A DNA stretch of 57,579 bases, taken from NCBI GenBank assembly GCA_023251775.1, contig JAHEYC010000010.1:1-57579 (forward strand), read 5' to 3'. Below, in pieces: positions 4,109-51,270 of the stretch. Under the pieces are notes generated by a model. That model was not told where the DNA came from. It saw only the letters and a list, made by a program, of their open reading frames with translations, and made no database searches. The translations under genes and the position numbers were made by a program. The DNA comes from Sphingobacteriaceae bacterium. GTDB lineage: Bacteria; Bacteroidota; Bacteroidia; B-17B0; Aurantibacillaceae. Every line of letters starts with the position of its first letter. Positions within the stretch are counted from its first letter, which is position 1.

Positions 4109-4414
4109 TTTGGGCGCCTCCCCTTTGCTTATGGAATTAAGGAGCAAGGGGGCCGGGCTTTCGCCACTCGCTCTTTTTTATCTCTATGGAATTACGGATG
4201 ATAAAAAAGGAGCTCAAACAATGGCTCAATCCCTGGCGCGGCAGTTTGGAAAGTTGAAACTCGAAAAACCCTATTTCTCCGCTCGCCGCGTGAGGGATTG
4301 TAGCGAAAATCCTTTTTGCTTCCAGTGTGTTTGGTGCAAAAAGATTGTAGCGGAAAGCCCGACGGCAACCGAACTTCCAGCGTATATGGTGTGAGTGTTG
4401 CCGGCACGCCCAAA
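4109..4414. repeat. Structured GC-rich intergenic element with complementary ends
   Basis: This stretch fills the 391-nt gap between two genes and is clearly richer in GC than its surroundings. Its ends are complementary (TTTGGGCG at 4109-4116, CGCCCAAA at 4407-4414). Inside are nested inverted repeats: CCCC-TTTGCT near 4120-4129 against AGCAAGGGG at 4143-4151; GCTCTTTTTTATC at 4170-4182 against GATAAAAAAGGAGC at 4200-4213; CAATCCCT at 4227-4234 against AGGGATTG at 4293-4300. The word GATTGTAGCG occurs directly at 4296-4305 and 4343-4352, with CTTTTTG and CAAAAAG between them. I recall similar GGGCTTTCCGCTACAATC elements between genes in other Bacteroidota genomes, but cannot check this. The 94-codon frame inside it shows no protein features and is treated as spurious. 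Confidence 0.65.
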
Positions 4415-7967: not shown

Positions 7968-8031
7968 AACCACCAAGTCACCAAGACACGGTTTTTTTAT
8001 GCACTAACAGTGTCTTGGTGTCTTGGTGGTT
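7968..8031. repeat. Inverted repeat of doubled CACCAAG words
   Basis: Two 22-nt arms (7968-7989 and 8010-8031) are reverse complements with one mismatch, separated by 20 nt. Each arm is itself a near-tandem duplication: CACCAAG written twice with one extra base. A looser CCACCAAGT copy lies at 7936-7942, and related CCTTGTGATCTTTGTGG words follow near 8050-8070. It lies between the convergent AsmA and porT ends and could serve as a terminator in both directions, though neither side has a clean T run. Confidence 0.75.
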
Positions 8032-14910: not shown

Positions 14911-15049
14911 TTAGCCACTAATTTCACTAATTAACTTTAATAATACTGTGTGAAGAATTATTGCACTAAAAAGCAGCGAAGCTGCTTCTGTTTTAGTGAA
15001 ATTTTGAGTAATCGCGGATTTAGAGATAATTCGTGAAATTAGTGGCTAA
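14911..15049. repeat. Perfect 17-bp inverted repeat around an inner hairpin
   Basis: Arms at 14911-14927 (TTAGCCACTAATTTCAC) and 15033-15049 are exact reverse complements. Inside is a second hairpin (14964-14998) with CACTAAAA/TTTTAGTG flanking GCAGC-GAA-GCTGC. The left arm and its flank (AGCCACTAATTTCACTAATT) recur with two changes at 22693. It lies between convergent genes and could terminate both transcripts. Confidence 0.8.
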
Positions 15050-20185: not shown

Positions 20186-20205
20186 AAATAATTCAATTCA
20201 AAATT

Positions 20206-20240
20206 AAAAAGCCCGGTCGGTAAGATCGGGCTTTTTTATT
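20206..20240 (+). terminator. Terminator of the peptide-binding lipoprotein gene
   Basis: AAAAAGCCCGGTC, a 5-nt loop and GATCGGGCTTTTTT form a long stem with one mismatch and a T run. An A run on the other side makes it usable on both strands. Confidence 0.85.
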
Positions 20241-20246
20241 GGGATC

Positions 20247-20351
20247 TTTAACCACGAAAGGCACAAAAATCCTACACGAAATTCACTAAACGTTTCGTGA
20301 CTTTCGTGAAAAATCCCGATAGCTATCGGGATCGTGTTTTTCGTGGTTAAA
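20247..20351. repeat. Composite inverted repeat of CGTGA/CACGAA words with an 18-20 bp palindrome
   Basis: Outer arms TTTAACCACGAA (20247-20258) and TTCGTGGTTAAA (20340-20351) are perfect complements. Inside, CACGAAAT-type words (20275-20285) face TTCGTGACTTTCGTGAA (20293-20309). The perfect palindrome ATCCCGATAGCTATCGGGAT sits at 20313-20332; its central 18 bp recur at 37465-37482. It fills the gap between convergent genes. Confidence 0.75.
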
Positions 20352-20360
20352 AAGCCCTAT

Positions 20361-21428
20361 TTAAACAGCGTCGTAATCAATAATTACTTTTTCGGTAATA
20401 GGATGTGATTGACATGTGAGCACATATCCTTGCGCTACTTCATCATCGGTTAAAGCAAAGTTGGCATCCATTTTTACTTTGCCTTCAATTACTTTTGCGC
20501 GACACGTACAACACACTGCGCCTTTGCAACTAAATGGCGCATCAACTCCGGCTTCAATGCTTGCATCTAAAATACTTATGCCTGTAGTTTCAAGATCGTA
20601 AGAAGTTTCAACGCCGTATTGGATAACGGTAACTTTTGCTTTTACATCAGCACCGCTGCCTTCGCCACTTGCTTTATTAACGGCATCAATTACACTGGTG
20701 AAATATTCGATGTGAATTTTTTCTTTCTTTATATTGAGTTTTTCTAAAGTGGCTTTTACATTTTCCATCATGGGGCCGGGACCGCAAATAAAATAGTCGT
20801 CGGCATTTCTTGCATCAAGACCTTCGATCAATTGCGCAGCTTTATCGGGAGTGATAATTCCTTTTTGAAGATCAGGGACCGAATTTTGCGGCGCATCAAA
20901 CACATAAACCACTTTTAAATTTGGGTTTGAAGAAGCGAGCTTATCTATCTCACTTTTAAAAATAGTTGAACTCTCATTTTTGTTAGCATAAATAAGTGTA
21001 ATGGTACTATATTTCTCAACGTATAAAATACTTTTTAAAATGCTCATCATAGGTGTTATCCCACTTCCGCCCGCAAACAAAACGTATTTCTTTTTTTGAT
21101 TTCCGGCAAGGATGCTAGTAAAAGTTCCCATGGGTGTCATCACTTCAATAACATCTCCCACTTTTAATTTTTGATTGATGTGCGACGATACCAAACCTTC
21201 TTTTACTTCTTTGATGGCAACACGTAATTCTTTTTCGTGAGGCGCTGTGCACAAACTGTAAGAGCGACGCACTTCGTTACCACCGATCATCATTTTAAGG
21301 GTGATGTATTGTCCTTGCTTAAATAAATATTCGGGTTGCTGAGGTGCTGGTACTTCAAACGCCACCGAAACCGCTTCGGGCGTTTCTCTTTTTATATCTT
21401 TAACTTTTAACGAATGAAAGCGAGCCAT
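20361..21428 (-). CDS. Flavin/2Fe-2S oxidoreductase (PaaE-like ferredoxin-NADP reductase)
   Basis: A 355-residue electron-transfer protein in three parts. First is a flavin-binding barrel with RRSYSLC near residue 60. Second is an NAD(P)-binding domain with FAGGSGITPMMSI near residue 118 and ICGPGPMM near 214. Third is a C-terminal plant-type 2Fe-2S domain with CKGAVCCTC and a later Cys in VLTCQSHP. It passes electrons from NADPH to an oxygenase or desaturase. The order matches PaaE of the phenylacetyl-CoA epoxidase, but no paa genes are near, so the acceptor is unknown. A TATTTTTG box lies 17 nt upstream. Confidence 0.9.
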   Translation of the reverse strand: MARFHSLKVKDIKRETPEAVSVAFEVPAPQQPEYLFKQGQYITLKMMIGGNEVRRSYSLCTAPHEKELRVAIKEVKEGLVSSHINQKLKVGDVIEVMTPMGTFTSILAGNQKKKYVLFAGGSGITPMMSILKSILYVEKYSTITLIYANKNESSTIFKSEIDKLASSNPNLKVVYVFDAPQNSVPDLQKGIITPDKAAQLIEGLDARNADDYFICGPGPMMENVKATLEKLNIKKEKIHIEYFTSVIDAVNKASGEGSGADVKAKVTVIQYGVETSYDLETTGISILDASIEAGVDAPFSCKGAVCCTCRAKVIEGKVKMDANFALTDDEVAQGYVLTCQSHPITEKVIIDYDAV

Positions 21429-22092: not shown

Positions 22093-22693
22093 AATTTTAA
22101 AACTCTGTTTAAATAAACATCTTTTAGAAGCCGGCTGCGATGAGGCCGGCCGTGGTTGTTTGGCAGGACCGGTTTTTGCGGCGGCAGTAATTTTGCCGAA
22201 GAATTTTAAGAATGAATTGCTGAATGATTCAAAGCAGCTTAAAGAAAAAGATCGTGATGAATTACGAAAGATCATTGAAAAGGAAGCCGTAGCATACGCC
22301 GTTGCACAAGTAAATAATTTAGAGATCGACGAGATCAATATTTTGAACGCGTCTTTTTTAGCCATGCATCGCGCACTTGATCAGTTAAAAACAATCCCGG
22401 AATTTATTTTGATCGATGGAAATCGTTTTAAACCGTATAAAAAAATTCCGCATCAATGCATTATAAAAGGCGATGGCAAATACATGAATATTGCTGCGGC
22501 AAGTATTTTGGCAAAAACTTATCGCGATGATTTTATGAAACAAGCAGCGCAGACATATTCTCAATTTGGATGGGAATCAAATATGGGCTATCCAACCATA
22601 AAACACCGAGAAGCTATTCGTGCGCATGGAACTACACCTTTACATCGCATGAGTTTTCAATTATTACCAAGGCAGCTTGAGCTCGAGCTTTAA
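22031..22693 (+). CDS. rnhB: Ribonuclease HII
   Basis: Removes RNA from RNA-DNA hybrids and single ribonucleotides from DNA. The frame gives 220 residues with EAGCDEAGRGCLAGPV (first two catalytic acids), FILIDGNRF and GDGKYMNIAAASILAKTYRD, and ends as family members do. The start is unclear. ATG at 22031 lies inside the peroxiredoxin gene and adds about 20 atypical residues before LNKHLLEAGCDEAG. A start near 22094, right after the peroxiredoxin stop (an ATT codon there), would give about 199 residues, closer to the family. I report the ATG form and note the alternative. Confidence 0.9.
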   Translation: MLQPIFLTLRISIAHFKRLSKILKLCLNKHLLEAGCDEAGRGCLAGPVFAAAVILPKNFKNELLNDSKQLKEKDRDELRKIIEKEAVAYAVAQVNNLEIDEINILNASFLAMHRALDQLKTIPEFILIDGNRFKPYKKIPHQCIIKGDGKYMNIAAASILAKTYRDDFMKQAAQTYSQFGWESNMGYPTIKHREAIRAHGTTPLHRMSFQLLPRQLELEL

Positions 22694-22788
22694 GCCACTA
22701 ATTGCACGAATTAACACTGAGCGCGGTGATAGATTAGTGCAATGATTACACAGAGCATGGTTTAGAGAAAATTAGTGGAATTAGTGGC
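22693..22788. repeat. Inverted repeat of CCACTAATT words
   Basis: GCCACTAATT (22694-22703) faces AATTAGTGGC (22779-22788), and the right arm holds TTAGTG twice. The left arm and flank match the repeat starting at 14912 with two changes, so both are copies of one element. It lies just after the rnhB stop. The remainder of the 22694-22861 gap holds nothing else that I can identify. Confidence 0.65.
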
Positions 22789-22845
22789 AAAAAAAGGATG
22801 CTGTTTCCAAACAATAAATGTTTCATAACTTCATTAGCATTTCCT

Positions 22846-46431: not shown

Positions 46432-46458
46432 CAAAAATAATTTGAATTAATACGCCAA
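46432..46458 (-). promoter_or_regulatory. Promoter of the 44943-46418 gene
   Basis: Minus strand: TTG 46458-46456, 16-nt spacer, TATTTTTG 46439-46432. It overlaps the last codons of metH, so this gene can be transcribed independently of the riboswitch. Confidence 0.5.
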
Positions 46459-49400
46459 TACAGGACCAAGCCAACGCTCTATGTCGGCAACGCTCATGTT
46501 CTTACGCTTGGCATATTCTTCCACTTGCTCTTTCGTTATTTTTCCTAAACCAAAATAACCGGAGTTCTCGTTGGCAAAATATAAACCACTTACAGCGGCA
46601 GTAGGGAACATTGCTAAACTATCCGTTAAAATAATGCCCGTATTTTTTTCTACATCCAATAGTTTCCAAATGGTTGTTTTTTCGGTATGATCGGGTTGAG
46701 CAGGATAGCCTGGGGCAGGACGAATACCTAAATATTCTTCTTTTATTAAAGCATCATTGGTTAAACTTTCATCAGCCGCATAACCCCACAATTCTGTACG
46801 TACTTTTTTATGCATCAATTCGGCAAATGCTTCTGCTAAACGATCAGCTAAAGCTTTTAATAAAATAGCACTGTAATCATCATGATTTTTTTCAAAGGCT
46901 TTTACATGTTCGTCAATTCCAAATCCTGTTGATAAGGCAAATGAGCCTATGTAATCTGTCTTCTCGACTCCGCTCGAAGTAACAGTCCCTTTTGGCGCAA
47001 CAAAATCAGAGAGCGCAATATTATATTGTCCCGCCGGTTTTTTACTTTGCTGGCGTAAGGTATGGAATGTACACTTTGCATTTCCTTTTTCATCCGTTAC
47101 TTCAATATCATCATTGCCATTACTGTTTGCAGGATAAATTCCTATCACCGCTTTTGCAGTTAACCATTTTTCCGAAATGATCTGTTTAAGCATAGCTTGC
47201 GCATCATTGAATAATTTTGTTGCTTCAACGCCACGCTCAGGATCTTTCAATATTTTAGGATAAATACCTTTCATTTCCCAACTGTGGAAGAATGGCGTCC
47301 AATCAATAAATTCTGCGATCTCGGCAATACTATAATTATCAAATACTTTATTTCCAATAAAATTTGGTTTACTTATCTTACAAGTATTCCAGTCTACAGG
47401 ATATTTATTATCGCGTGCATCTTTTAGCGAAATGAATTTATTTTGCGATTGTGCATTCTTGTTCAGTTCGCGCACACGCGCATAATCTTTATTTACATCT
47501 ACCATAAATGCAGCACGCAATTCGTTTGAAATTAAACTGCTGGCCACAGGAACCGATTTACTGGCGTCATTTACATGCACTACCGGTCCCGAGTAATTTT
47601 GCGCAATTTTTACAGCGGTATGAACTTTAGACGTTGTTGCACCGCCAATTAATAAAGGCAATTTAAAATTCAAACGCTCCATTTCCTTAGCAACATGCAC
47701 CATTTCATCAAGAGAAGGGGTGATCAATCCGCTCAATCCAATAACATCCACATTTTGTTTTTTGGCTTCATCCAAAATTTTATCGCACGACACCATTACG
47801 CCAAGATCAATGATCTCGTAATTATTACAAGCCAATACAACGCCAACAATATTTTTTCCAATATCGTGTACATCGCCTTTTACAGTGGCCAATAAAATTT
47901 TTCCAGCGTTAGTTCTTCCATCGCCAACAATACCTGCTTTTTTGTTCGCTTCTTTTTCGGCTAATAAATATGGTTCTAAATACGCTACGGCTTTTTTCAT
48001 CACGCGCGCGCTTTTTACAACTTGCGGTAAGAACATTTTCCCCGCGCCAAACAGATCGCCAACAATGTTCATGCCATCCATTAACGGACCTTCAATAACG
48101 TGTAAAGGTCTTCCTAATTTTTTTCGCGCTTCTTCTGTATCCTCATCAATGTATTCTACAATTCCTTTTACTAAAGCATGGCTCAAACGCTCTTCCACCG
48201 TGGTTTTGCGCCAGGCCTCATCTTTTTCGGTAACATTTTTTACAATACCCTTTAATGATTCGGCATGATCAACCAAACGCTCGGTTGCATCATCTCTTCT
48301 GTTCAATAAAACATCTTCGATGAGGGTCAATAATTCTTTTTCAATATCATCATAAACCACCAACTGACTTGGATTTACAATACCCATATCCATTCCGTTC
48401 TTCACCGCATGGTATAAAAATGCGGAGTGAATAGCTTCACGCACATGATCATTTCCTCTAAAAGAAAAAGAAACGTTACTTACACCGCCGCTCACTTTTG
48501 CACCGGGTAAATTTTCTTTTATCCATTTGGTTGCATTAAAAAAGTCTAAAGCATTCAAGCGATGTTCTTCCATGCCTGTTGCAACCGGAAAAATATTGGG
48601 ATCAAAAATGATATCTTCCTTTGGGAAATCAACCACATTCACCAAAATATCATAGGCACGTTTGCAAATATCAATTCTGCGTTGCAAAGTATCCGCTTGT
48701 CCAACTTCATCAAAGGCCATAACAATAACCGCAGCGCCGTACTGTTTTACTTTACGCGCTTGTTCAATGAATTTTTCTTCGCCTTCTTTCATCGAAATAG
48801 AATTCACAATGGCTTTTCCTTGAACACATTTCAATCCAGCTTCAATAACGGTCCATTTAGATGAATCGATCATAATTGGAACGCGACAAATATCCGGTTC
48901 GGATGCAATAAGATTTAAAAATGTGGTCATGCTTTCTTCGCTGTCCAACATTCCTTCGTCCATGTTCACATCAATCACTTGCGCGCCGCCTTCTACTTGT
49001 TCTTTAGCTATTGATAATGCTTCTTCAAAATTTCCTTCTTTAATTAAACGAAGGAATTTTTTTGAGCCGGTAACATTCGTGCGCTCTCCAACATTCATAA
49101 AATTACTTTCCGGCCTAAGCGTTAAAGGTTCTAGTCCGCTCAAATGCATCAAGCCATCGCGTTGCGGTTTTTTGCGAGGCTTTGAAAGTTTCGCTAACTC
49201 TGCAATACGTTTAATATGCGACGGGGTAGTTCCACAACATCCGCCAACAATATTTATAAATCCCGCTTTTAAAAAATCTTCGATCTCATGTCCCATGTCA
49301 TGTGCATCCTGATCGTATTCACCAAACTGATTTGGCAAACCGGCATTGGGATATGCACTCACATAAAATGGCGCTTTGGCCGAAAGTTCTTCCAAATACG

Positions 49401-50166
49401 GTCTCATGTCTTTTGCACCCAAGGCACAATTCAATCCTACGCTTAACAGATCAACATGCGAAACCGAATTTAAAAATGCTTCGGTGGTTTGTCCCGATAA
49501 AGTTCTTCCACTTGCATCAGTAATTGTTCCCGATACCATCACAGGCATTTTTCTATTGATAGACTTGCAATAATTTTGGATCGCAAACAAAGCTGCCTTT
49601 GCATTTAGCGTATCAAAAATTGTTTCTATCAATAAAATATCAGCGCCACCTTCTACCAAACCTTTTACTTGTTCTTGATACGCGGTAACCATTTCATCAA
49701 ATGTTACGGCGCGAAACCCCGGATCGTTCACATTGGGTGATAACGACAATGTACGATTAGTTGGACCAATAGCACCGGCCACATATTTATTTACATTGGC
49801 AAATTCAGGAAATTCTTTTTTGAATTCCGCAATAGCTTCTTTGGCAATTTTGGCCGATTCATAATTCAATTCATGAACCAATTCTTGCATGCCGTAATCG
49901 GCCATGGCAATAGTTGTACCACTGAATGTATTTGTTTCAATGATATCAGCACCGGCCTTTAAATATTCTTTGTGAATGGCCTTTATGATATTGGGTTGCG
50001 TGATCGACAAAAGATCGTTATTGCCCTGAAGATCCTTTGGCCAATCGGCAAAACGTTTACCGCGATAATCTTTTTCCTCCAATTTATATTGTTGGATCAT
50101 GGTGCCCATAGCCCCATCAATTACGAGTATGCGTTTTTCGAGTTCTTGTTTTATATCTGAGTTCAT
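46447..50166 (-). CDS. metH: Cobalamin-dependent methionine synthase
   Basis: Methylates homocysteine to methionine using methyltetrahydrofolate and cobalamin. The 1239-residue protein has all four modules: Hcy-binding (1-330, zinc Cys in SVGLNCALG and [11 protein letters not shown]), folate-binding (350-630, [13 protein letters not shown]), B12-binding (about 650-890, with [14 protein letters not shown], the DxHxxG ligand) and the reactivation domain (about 900-1239, [13 protein letters not shown] and [16 protein letters not shown]). It follows a class I methyltransferase gene by 9 nt, so both lie behind the SAM-I riboswitch. Feedback by SAM on its synthesis route fits. Confidence 0.98.
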
Positions 50167-50175
50167 AAATTTCGT

Positions 50176-50937
50176 TTATAGAGTTCCGTAATAAACTTTT
50201 GTATCATAATCCAAACGCACTGTATTGTTTTGCTGATACCTTGCAAATACTTTTTTTAAACAGTACATCATATGTTCGTAATCTTTATGCCCCTCATTGG
50301 GCATATACGATGATGATAATACGCGACCTTTCAATCCTGCAAAGTCAACATCCTGAAAATTGTAAAACCATTTCTCTGCATAATTTCCTCCAAAGAATGC
50401 ATCAAATATTTTTTTGTCTTGCGTATTTTTATGATTCACTTCTTTGTAATCTGTTCCACAGGCTTGCAAAAAATCTTCGTACGATCTTAAAAACTCTGTA
50501 CTATCAGTTCGTCTATCATTCCAAAGCAAAACAACATATCCGCCCGGTTTTAAAATACGTTTGAATTCCTGTTTTGTTTTCTCTTTATCAAACCAATGAA
50601 ATGCTTGTCCTGCAATAACAACATCTACCGAATGATCTTTCAATGTTGTATTTTCTGCCGCGGCGTTCACGCTATGGAATTTTTTATTCTCGCCTAATAA
50701 TTTTTCGGCAGCTTCTCTCATTTCTTTGTTTGGCTCAACGGCAAATACTTCCAAATCTAATTTCAAAAATGGTTCAGTCGAAATTCCTGTGCCTGAACCA
50801 ATATCTGCTACAACCGAATTTTTTGTGATGATGTTTTGAGACAATAGAAAGTCGAACATCTCCTGAGGATAATGCGGACGATACTTGATATAATTATCAA
50901 CTCTATCGGCGAATCTATGTGTTGTTTCTGTGCTCAT
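50176..50937 (-). CDS. Class I SAM-dependent methyltransferase in the metH operon
   Basis: A 253-residue soluble methyltransferase of the Methyltransf_11 type. The SAM site VADIGSGTGISTEPFL lies near residue 43, the acidic loop FAVEPNKEM near 69, and VIAGQAFHWFDKEK near 109, with the post-II motif ILKPGGYVVLLW near 128. It resembles YcgJ/trans-aconitate-type enzymes, whose substrate cannot be read from sequence. It is the first gene after the riboswitch and 9 nt before metH. A role in methionine or homocysteine metabolism is inferred from that only. Confidence 0.9.
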   Translation of the reverse strand: MSTETTHRFADRVDNYIKYRPHYPQEMFDFLLSQNIITKNSVVADIGSGTGISTEPFLKLDLEVFAVEPNKEMREAAEKLLGENKKFHSVNAAAENTTLKDHSVDVVIAGQAFHWFDKEKTKQEFKRILKPGGYVVLLWNDRRTDSTEFLRSYEDFLQACGTDYKEVNHKNTQDKKIFDAFFGGNYAEKWFYNFQDVDFAGLKGRVLSSSYMPNEGHKDYEHMMYCLKKVFARYQQNNTVRLDYDTKVYYGTL

Positions 50938-50977
50938 TAAAATATATCCGTTGTCTCTGTACTATAAAAACAAAAAT

Positions 50978-51002
50978 CCCTTCACGTTTTTAGTCGGAAG
51001 GG
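50978..51002 (-). terminator. Riboswitch-controlled terminator in the metH leader
   Basis: CCCTTC and GAAGGG pair around a 13-nt loop, then ATTTTTGTTTTT. TTCCGACT (50999-50992), which is partly in this stem, can instead pair with AGTCGGAA (51045-51038) as antiterminator; that strand overlaps P1 of the riboswitch. SAM binding should therefore favour termination. Confidence 0.85.
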
Positions 51003-51042
51003 AGCGTTATTTGTTGTTAAATTTGATCTCTTTTTATTTCCG

Positions 51043-51245
51043 ACTTATCTTTCCCGGTTAAACCGAGACGAATTTCCACCTTCTAATAAGTTGTAAAGTT
51101 TGAGAAAGTTTTGAAAGTTGAGAAAGTTCGGAGATCGCTTCATCACGATCTTAACTTTCTAAACTGATCAACTTTCTTCACTTTTCAACTGAATCAGGGT
51201 TGGTAAGGCTTCAAAGGGCGTATCCCTCAGCCTTTCTTGATAAGT
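51043..51245 (-). ncRNA. SAM-I riboswitch with an enlarged P3 arm
   Basis: P1 pairs ACTTATC (51245-51239) with GATAAGT (51049-51043). Then come CAAGAAAGGCTGAGGGATAC, GCCCTTTGAAGCCT and TTACCAACC, matching the conserved P2 and P2/P3 junction, and later AAGGTGGAAATTCG plus a P4 hairpin (CTCGGTTTAACCGGG) and GGAAAGATAAG. These are the SAM-I core in order. P3 (between ACC near 51199 and GGT at 51080) is about 120 nt instead of the usual 25-35, filled with AACTTTC/GAAAGTT words (51088-51190) that fold on themselves. An attenuator follows. It controls the methyltransferase-metH operon. Confidence 0.9.
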
Positions 51246-51262
51246 TTGTTAAAGAACTAGAA

Positions 51263-51270
51263 CAAAGGTA
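51263..51270 (-). promoter_or_regulatory. -7 box of the riboswitch-metH transcript
   Basis: TACCTTTG on the minus strand, a perfect consensus match, lies 17 nt before P1 of the riboswitch, as expected for a leader that starts near 51255. Confidence 0.6.

Follow-up and report, generated by a model that had tools for sequence, protein, structure and literature searches.

Probable exchange of the P3 arm of a metH-leader SAM-I riboswitch, independent of its flanks, in a genus of Bacteroidota

How does a riboswitch come to carry, within its own aptamer, a long arm made of short repeated words, and what becomes of such an arm as species diverge? The question is raised by the metH leader of a Sphingobacteriaceae bacterium (genome G000), which lies in the window, i.e., the whole stretch of 57,579 nt analysed here. 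The original prediction read this leader as a working SAM-I riboswitch in which a repeat had landed, or grown, in a tolerated stem. Based on comparisons with the leaders of related genomes, we consider it likely that P3 is a tolerated site of an attenuating SAM-I switch, the content of which is replaced wholesale by word-built hairpins.

The metH-leader riboswitch

The features of the locus, in the order of transcription, are:

51263–51270, minus strand: TACCTTTG, likely -7 promoter element (from the sequence, and from TAnnTTTG at equal distance in leaders of the genus)
51042–51246, minus strand: SAM-I riboswitch aptamer (RF00162), P1 to P4 (covariance-model match; the minimum free energy fold gives P1, P2, P3 and P4)
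51081–51197, minus strand: P3 arm of 117 nt, bordered by CAACC and GGTG, a rod of AACTTTC/GAAAGTT words (sequence, fold and repetition test)
51132–51151, minus strand: apical cap AGATCG/CGATCT, with halves at 51132–51137 and 51146–51151 (from the sequence; absent from the related arm of G033)
51038–51045, minus strand: 3' P1 strand AGTCGGAA, also the antiterminator strand (8-bp complement of the 5' part of the terminator)
50970–51003, minus strand: intrinsic terminator, CCCTTC/GAAGGG stem and T run (sequence and fold)
50176–50937, minus strand: SAM-dependent methyltransferase gene (Methyltransf_11), the first behind the leader (Pfam PF08241, 73.6 bits)
46447–50166, minus strand: metH, cobalamin-dependent methionine synthase (five Pfam domains of MetH)

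By sequence membership, the locus is a SAM-I riboswitch. When a short stretch was searched with lax filters, RF00162 matched 51246–51042 (minus strand) over model positions 1–108 with 62.2 bits (E 3.2e-14; gathering score 44.4 bits), and 104 nt of P3 were omitted from the printed match. The coordinates originally predicted agree with this match to within one base, and the strand, left unnamed there, is minus. The covariance-model alignment and the folds give the four-way arrangement of P1 to P4 with the GAGGGA kink element. Moreover, folding in silico with and without 51088–51190 predicted identical P1, P2 and P4 helices, with P1 pair probabilities of 0.99–1.0 either way; core and expression platform look intact in the metH leader, as had been proposed.

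With default filters, a scan of the whole window did not detect the metH-leader SAM-I, and a scan of the whole genome returned it solely as a truncated piece of 42.5 bits, below the cut-off. Since default covariance-model filters skip or truncate such copies, SAM-I riboswitches with a P3 of this length are probably under-annotated. SAM-I was detected in 56 of 60 relatives. G000 also has a second SAM-I (L001; G000:C142:7012-7141, minus strand; 65.5 bits), whose P3 is shorter and varies in sequence, and copies of the same kind occur in relatives. The window further contains a Flavo-1 RNA (RF01705) at 4280–4368 on the plus strand (59.9 bits; gathering 42).

Both the terminator and the antiterminator that had been predicted behind the aptamer are present, AGTCGGAA being the exact complement of the terminator stretch TTCCGACT and thus forming an 8-bp antiterminator. 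Among the 37 genomes of the genus (G000 to G036), an automatic search with a tally of rows found this pairing in 34 leaders and in two alternative types, GTCGGA opposite TTCCG (20 leaders) and GTCAG opposite TTCTG (12 leaders); G-U pairs were needed in two (G005, G014), and the search found no pairing at the terminator in G002, G019 and G024, nor in G041, a genome of another family. The antiterminator is supported by this change from G-C to A-U on both sides across the genus. Upstream, TAnnTTTG, which we take to be the Bacteroidetes -7 promoter consensus, stands at equal distance in 32 of the 37 genus leaders (32 of 38 when G041 is added). Judged by its sequence, the metH-leader switch controls transcription by attenuation: in the presence of SAM, the P1 helix would hold AGTCGGAA and the terminator would form, and in its absence, AGTCGGAA would pair with the 5' part of the terminator and metH would be transcribed. 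The leader presumably responds to SAM in this manner. A methyltransferase gene between riboswitch and metH is found in some leaders only (matches in G000, G003, G021, G029, G032 and G041); for G013 and G036, neither gene lay in the first fetched stretch, and metH followed about 1.6 kb further on.

The leader resembles the SAM-I (S-box) family of RF00162 in P1, P2, the base of P3, P4, the letters of the core, the terminator with antiterminator and the methionine-cycle gene downstream. It differs from it in P3, which measures 117 nt here but 11–19 nt in most metH leaders found by pattern outside the genus, and which consists of repeated words whose content changes independently of the core.

Length and composition of the P3 arm

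P3 arms were excised by letter patterns rather than by the covariance model, from the metH-linked SAM-I copy in all 37 genus genomes. P3 measures 67–117 nt in 32 of them and is short (15–43 nt) in five (G023, G024, G026, G014 and G027). Comparison with the leaders of relatives revealed a long P3 common to most of the genus, and the view of the extra length as an event of this one genome did not hold up. The arm of G000 is the longest, followed by that of G033 (105 nt), to which it is related (66% identity, Z 6.7), and the arm of G041 measures 93 nt. When this arm is added to the 32 long genus arms, 26 of the 33 fall between 80 and 93 nt. Genus arms start with CTT, CTG or CTA and end with GAA. 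Among the metH loci of other genomes, the pattern matched 45 of 80 named ones. Of the seven whose metH is at least 85% identical, six have a P3 of 71–93 nt; one of these seven belongs to Bacteroidetes bacterium RIFCSPLOWO2_12_FULL_35_15, presumably of GTDB genus 2-12-FULL-35-15. P3 measures 11–41 nt in 37 of the remaining 39 loci, and L154 and L181 look like chance pattern matches.

The words, their pairing and the cap described at the outset for about 100 extra nt of P3 were all found in the arm of G000. Its five AACTTTC/GAAAGTT words start at 51104, 51113, 51122, 51153 and 51170, and it folds at -45 kcal/mol (z -6.9), with none of 200 shuffles as good. Repetition was tested by counting repeated five-letter words in each arm half against dinucleotide shuffles, and reached 43 in the G000 arm against 16.8 on average in the shuffles (p 0.003, the lowest value that 300 shuffles allow). 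Across the 33 arms, repetition exceeded the shuffles in 25 (p < 0.05), with no significant word repetition found in eight, and folds with z < -2 were obtained for 26, a value that seven did not reach.

Such words also occur outside the riboswitch. GAAAGTT followed within 0–12 nt by another GAAAGTT has 31 matches in G000, compared with 3 for the backwards control. Three of them belong to P3, and the other 28 are spread over 11 places on 10 contigs. Eight of these places fold as hairpins (C5, C25, C58, C83, C106, C19, C23 and C90), and no hairpin fold was found at the two places on C16 and at C30. With respect to called ORFs, eight of the 11 follow a 3' end directly, and four of these (C5, C25, C83 and C106) stand between convergent ORFs; C16b overlaps an ORF end, C90 is located upstream of an ORF, and no ORF was called next to C19. 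The best match to the arm elsewhere in G000 is 84% identical over 44 nt (E 7e-7).

The original prediction had further likened the arm to intergenic repeats of the window. In fact, four window hairpins (7968–8031, 14911–15049, 20202–20365 and 22689–22793) carry repeated words in their arms and sit between called ORFs, two of them reaching about 5 nt into the end of an ORF, and the first three being flanked by convergent ORFs. The likeness extends to this build and not to the words themselves, which are ACCAAG, CACTAATT, CACGAAA and similar, i.e., other than AACTTTC. Across the whole window AACTTTC is not enriched (18 observed, 14.6 expected), and the idea that it is a repeat word common to the window was rejected. 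The gap behind rarA (L245–L274), which in G000 is one of the 11 places with the doubled word, was compared at 30 loci out of 38 matches, one of which runs off its contig, leaving 29 readable relatives. By eye, word hairpins stand there in G000, G033, G018, G025, G020 and G006 and mostly not in the other readable relatives, and the words differ even between the near relatives G018 and G020. Because this gap varies among relatives, word hairpins are gained and lost at an intergenic site as well.

Arms could in principle be regrown in place, i.e., collapse and then be restored on the spot, without a donor, through replication slippage and template switching. Tandem words on one strand with their complements on the other are the expected trace of slippage and fold-back copying, many arms fall outside any shared class, and the difference between G018 and G020 behind rarA points in the same direction. 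Template switching has been reported to create and repair RNA stems, as outlined for RNA genes by Monttinen and Loytynoja (2022; PMC8794818). This mutational route likewise yields stems in a single event, but the account concerns small stem changes, whereas in this genus the unit replaced is an arm of roughly 85 nt, and the same arm types turn up in different species. Arm classes (A–E) were set by hand from the stronger similarity links and cover 19 genomes, and Z within them is not always above 6.9 (4.9 for G003/G022, 6.7 for G000/G033), while single linkage at Z > 6 chains 14 genomes into one arm group. Classes A, B and D are common to distant species with diverged flanks, and regrowth would need an independent origin of arms that are 80–95% identical, which leaves it possible but rather doubtful.

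The narrow length of otherwise unrelated arms, together with their folds, could also reflect a job of the arm itself, e.g., as RNase III site, pause or insulating rod, so that length would be selected and sequence left free. This would be compatible with replacement. It has to account, however, for the five short arms within the genus and for those of the 37 credible loci outside the genus-like set; because of these, the arm is dispensable across the group, and we regard a function of its own as unlikely. Two-sided changes were found in two of 30 pairs in the best-sampled class (A), which lends weak support to selection for pairing. In the reading favoured here, the arm is taken to be neutral or close to neutral.

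Arm content changes independently of its flanks

The stronger result of this study is that arm content has been exchanged between species independently of its flanks. The 32 long arms were compared in 496 pairs, with the flank taken as 110 nt upstream plus 100 nt downstream, conserved core included, and arm similarity expressed as Z over shuffled arms. Arm and flank similarity did not correlate (Spearman rho -0.03), and 13 of the 17 pairs with a flank similarity of at least 0.85 had an arm Z below 3. G006 has nearly identical flanks to G018 (0.96) and G020 (0.97), including promoter, P4 and terminator, and an arm unrelated to either (Z 1.7 and 2.0). G001 and G030 are sisters on the metH tree (support 100/96) and share an upstream flank of 0.92 with an arm of 0.47. 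For G004 and G005 (metH 94%, arm Z 1.3), the base of the arm is still related, and partial replacement or fast change within the arm is therefore possible.

Conversely, similar arms persist where the surroundings have diverged, as in G011/G031 (arm 95%, flank 0.75, metH 82%), G015/G029 (arm 93%, metH 83%) and G030/G034 (arm 82%, flank 0.71). Placed on the metH tree, in which 14 of the 35 inner branches are starred and 12 open, the five hand-set classes need 9 changes, compared with a mean of 10.7 for shuffled labels (9 or fewer in 27 of 300).

A single ancestral long arm that drifts fast under constraints on pairing and length, its words following from AT-rich composition, would explain why 32 of 37 genus genomes have long arms of similar length with shared starts and ends. 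Such drift would, however, let arm divergence rise with flank divergence, and the correlation is nil. Flanks of 96–97% identity around unrelated arms, arms of 93–95% identity persisting at 82–83% metH identity and the word repetition above dinucleotide shuffles in 25 of 33 arms speak against it as well. Since arms are slow to change when kept and abrupt when changed, the pattern argues for replacement, and drift from one ancestral arm is already disfavoured and appears quite improbable.

A repeat in a tolerated stem fits, as core and platform look intact, the arm is word-built and the same doubled word occurs at 11 other places in G000, eight of them hairpins. The part of the original prediction that did not survive is a single landing in this genome, e.g., of a REP- or MITE-like mobile repeat. 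The other doubled-word places and the match of 84% would agree with such an event, but the P3 site already holds long arms in 31 of the 36 genus relatives, the arm of G033 is related, and no target-site duplication or terminal repeats were visible in a non-systematic look at the alignments. In its simple form, a single landing was rejected, the orthologous site being occupied in relatives, and we judge it very improbable. The long P3 is thus widespread among relatives, and the arm does resemble other repeats of its genome. Chimeric metagenome contigs joined at the conserved core are hardly credible as the cause: most genomes look like drafts of many contigs and the core is conserved between species, but each arm shares a single contig with both its flanks, the sisters G001 and G030 carry unrelated arms in assemblies of one and two contigs, and the short conserved core on the 3' side would demand two mis-joins 85 nt apart every time.

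Source of the arms and implications

Several results run counter to a simple origin of the arms within their own genomes. With the G000 arm as query (E ≤ 0.01), five other places were found in G000, eight in G008 and none in G033. G008 has 57 GAAAGTT doublets (2 in the control), yet its own arm is of another class; its tandem GAAAGTT run at G008:C1:42608-42713 is far denser than in G000. G033, with 4 doublets (1 in the control), is not clearly enriched, though its arm is of the AACTTTC class. Strict doubled-word patterns for two other arm classes were not dispersed, matching once each in 6 and 5 of 40 genomes, and three of these matches were P3 arms themselves. A-like places, searched with the G018 arm, averaged 2.6 in 8 class-A genomes and 0.66 in 29 others (Mann–Whitney p 8e-5, uncorrected for kinship); they were counted by hand, with P3 places omitted, near neighbours merged and G060–G062 left out, and G002 was treated as class A in this count and not in the tree test.

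The G006 arm most resembles the one that G003 carries in P3 (90% over 59 nt, E 1.6e-16), followed by the P3 arms of G010 and G022. Outside P3, its own genome gave weak matches only (best E 5e-4) and no near-identical donor. As the sequences nearest to it are P3 arms carried by other species, the G006 case favours exchange from P3 to P3 between species over conversion by dispersed copies. The 75-nt upstream core is 97% identical between G006 and G022 (both class B), and homologous exchange via the core is therefore possible. A donor search for the G004 arm found nothing close.

In the crystal structure of the SAM-I riboswitch, P3 is a stem with a free outer end, and a long hairpin could therefore be tolerated there. 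We propose that this site holds, in the genus, a rod of commonly 80–93 nt (about 85 nt), the sequence of which would not be inherited with the surrounding leader. Instead, the whole arm would be replaced in discrete events by hairpins of short repeated words, such as also stand between genes of the same genomes, with the arm of G000 carrying the AACTTTC family. Replacement would most likely proceed by recombination or conversion via the conserved core or the base of the arm, and new arms could arise from slippage combined with template switching. The routes may comprise recombination between species, conversion within a genome and regrowth in place. As a more tentative extension, which we consider quite possible, the aptamer core could act as a recombination handle, so that P3 hairpins circulate as modules at the metH riboswitch from one species of the genus to another, independent of promoter, P4 and terminator, and stem from a wider pool of word hairpins turning over between genes.

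REP, ERIC, MITE and similar elements are short palindromes scattered through intergenic regions, frequently on the 3' side of a gene, and the word hairpins of G000 share these traits. Unlike them, the hairpins described here have no fixed consensus and are united by words of 7–9 letters and by their hairpin form; the family varies from species to species, and one of its members is embedded in an aptamer. Among the titles and abstract openings covered, a scope largely outside the subscription literature, none described a P3 arm that is exchanged or built from repeats.

In structured RNAs, the usual expectation for peripheral arms is drift accompanied by compensatory changes. The present riboswitch, which looks functional, has kept its core and platform while, in several lineages of the genus, the whole arm was replaced in discrete events, and the interest lies in this pattern of replacement more than in the repeat itself. 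The leaders of the genus thereby offer a natural series for the tolerance of P3 in a riboswitch, for the origin of new RNA stems and for the question whether a conserved RNA core can target short exchanges, and they suggest that a regulatory RNA can have some of its parts swapped as modules.
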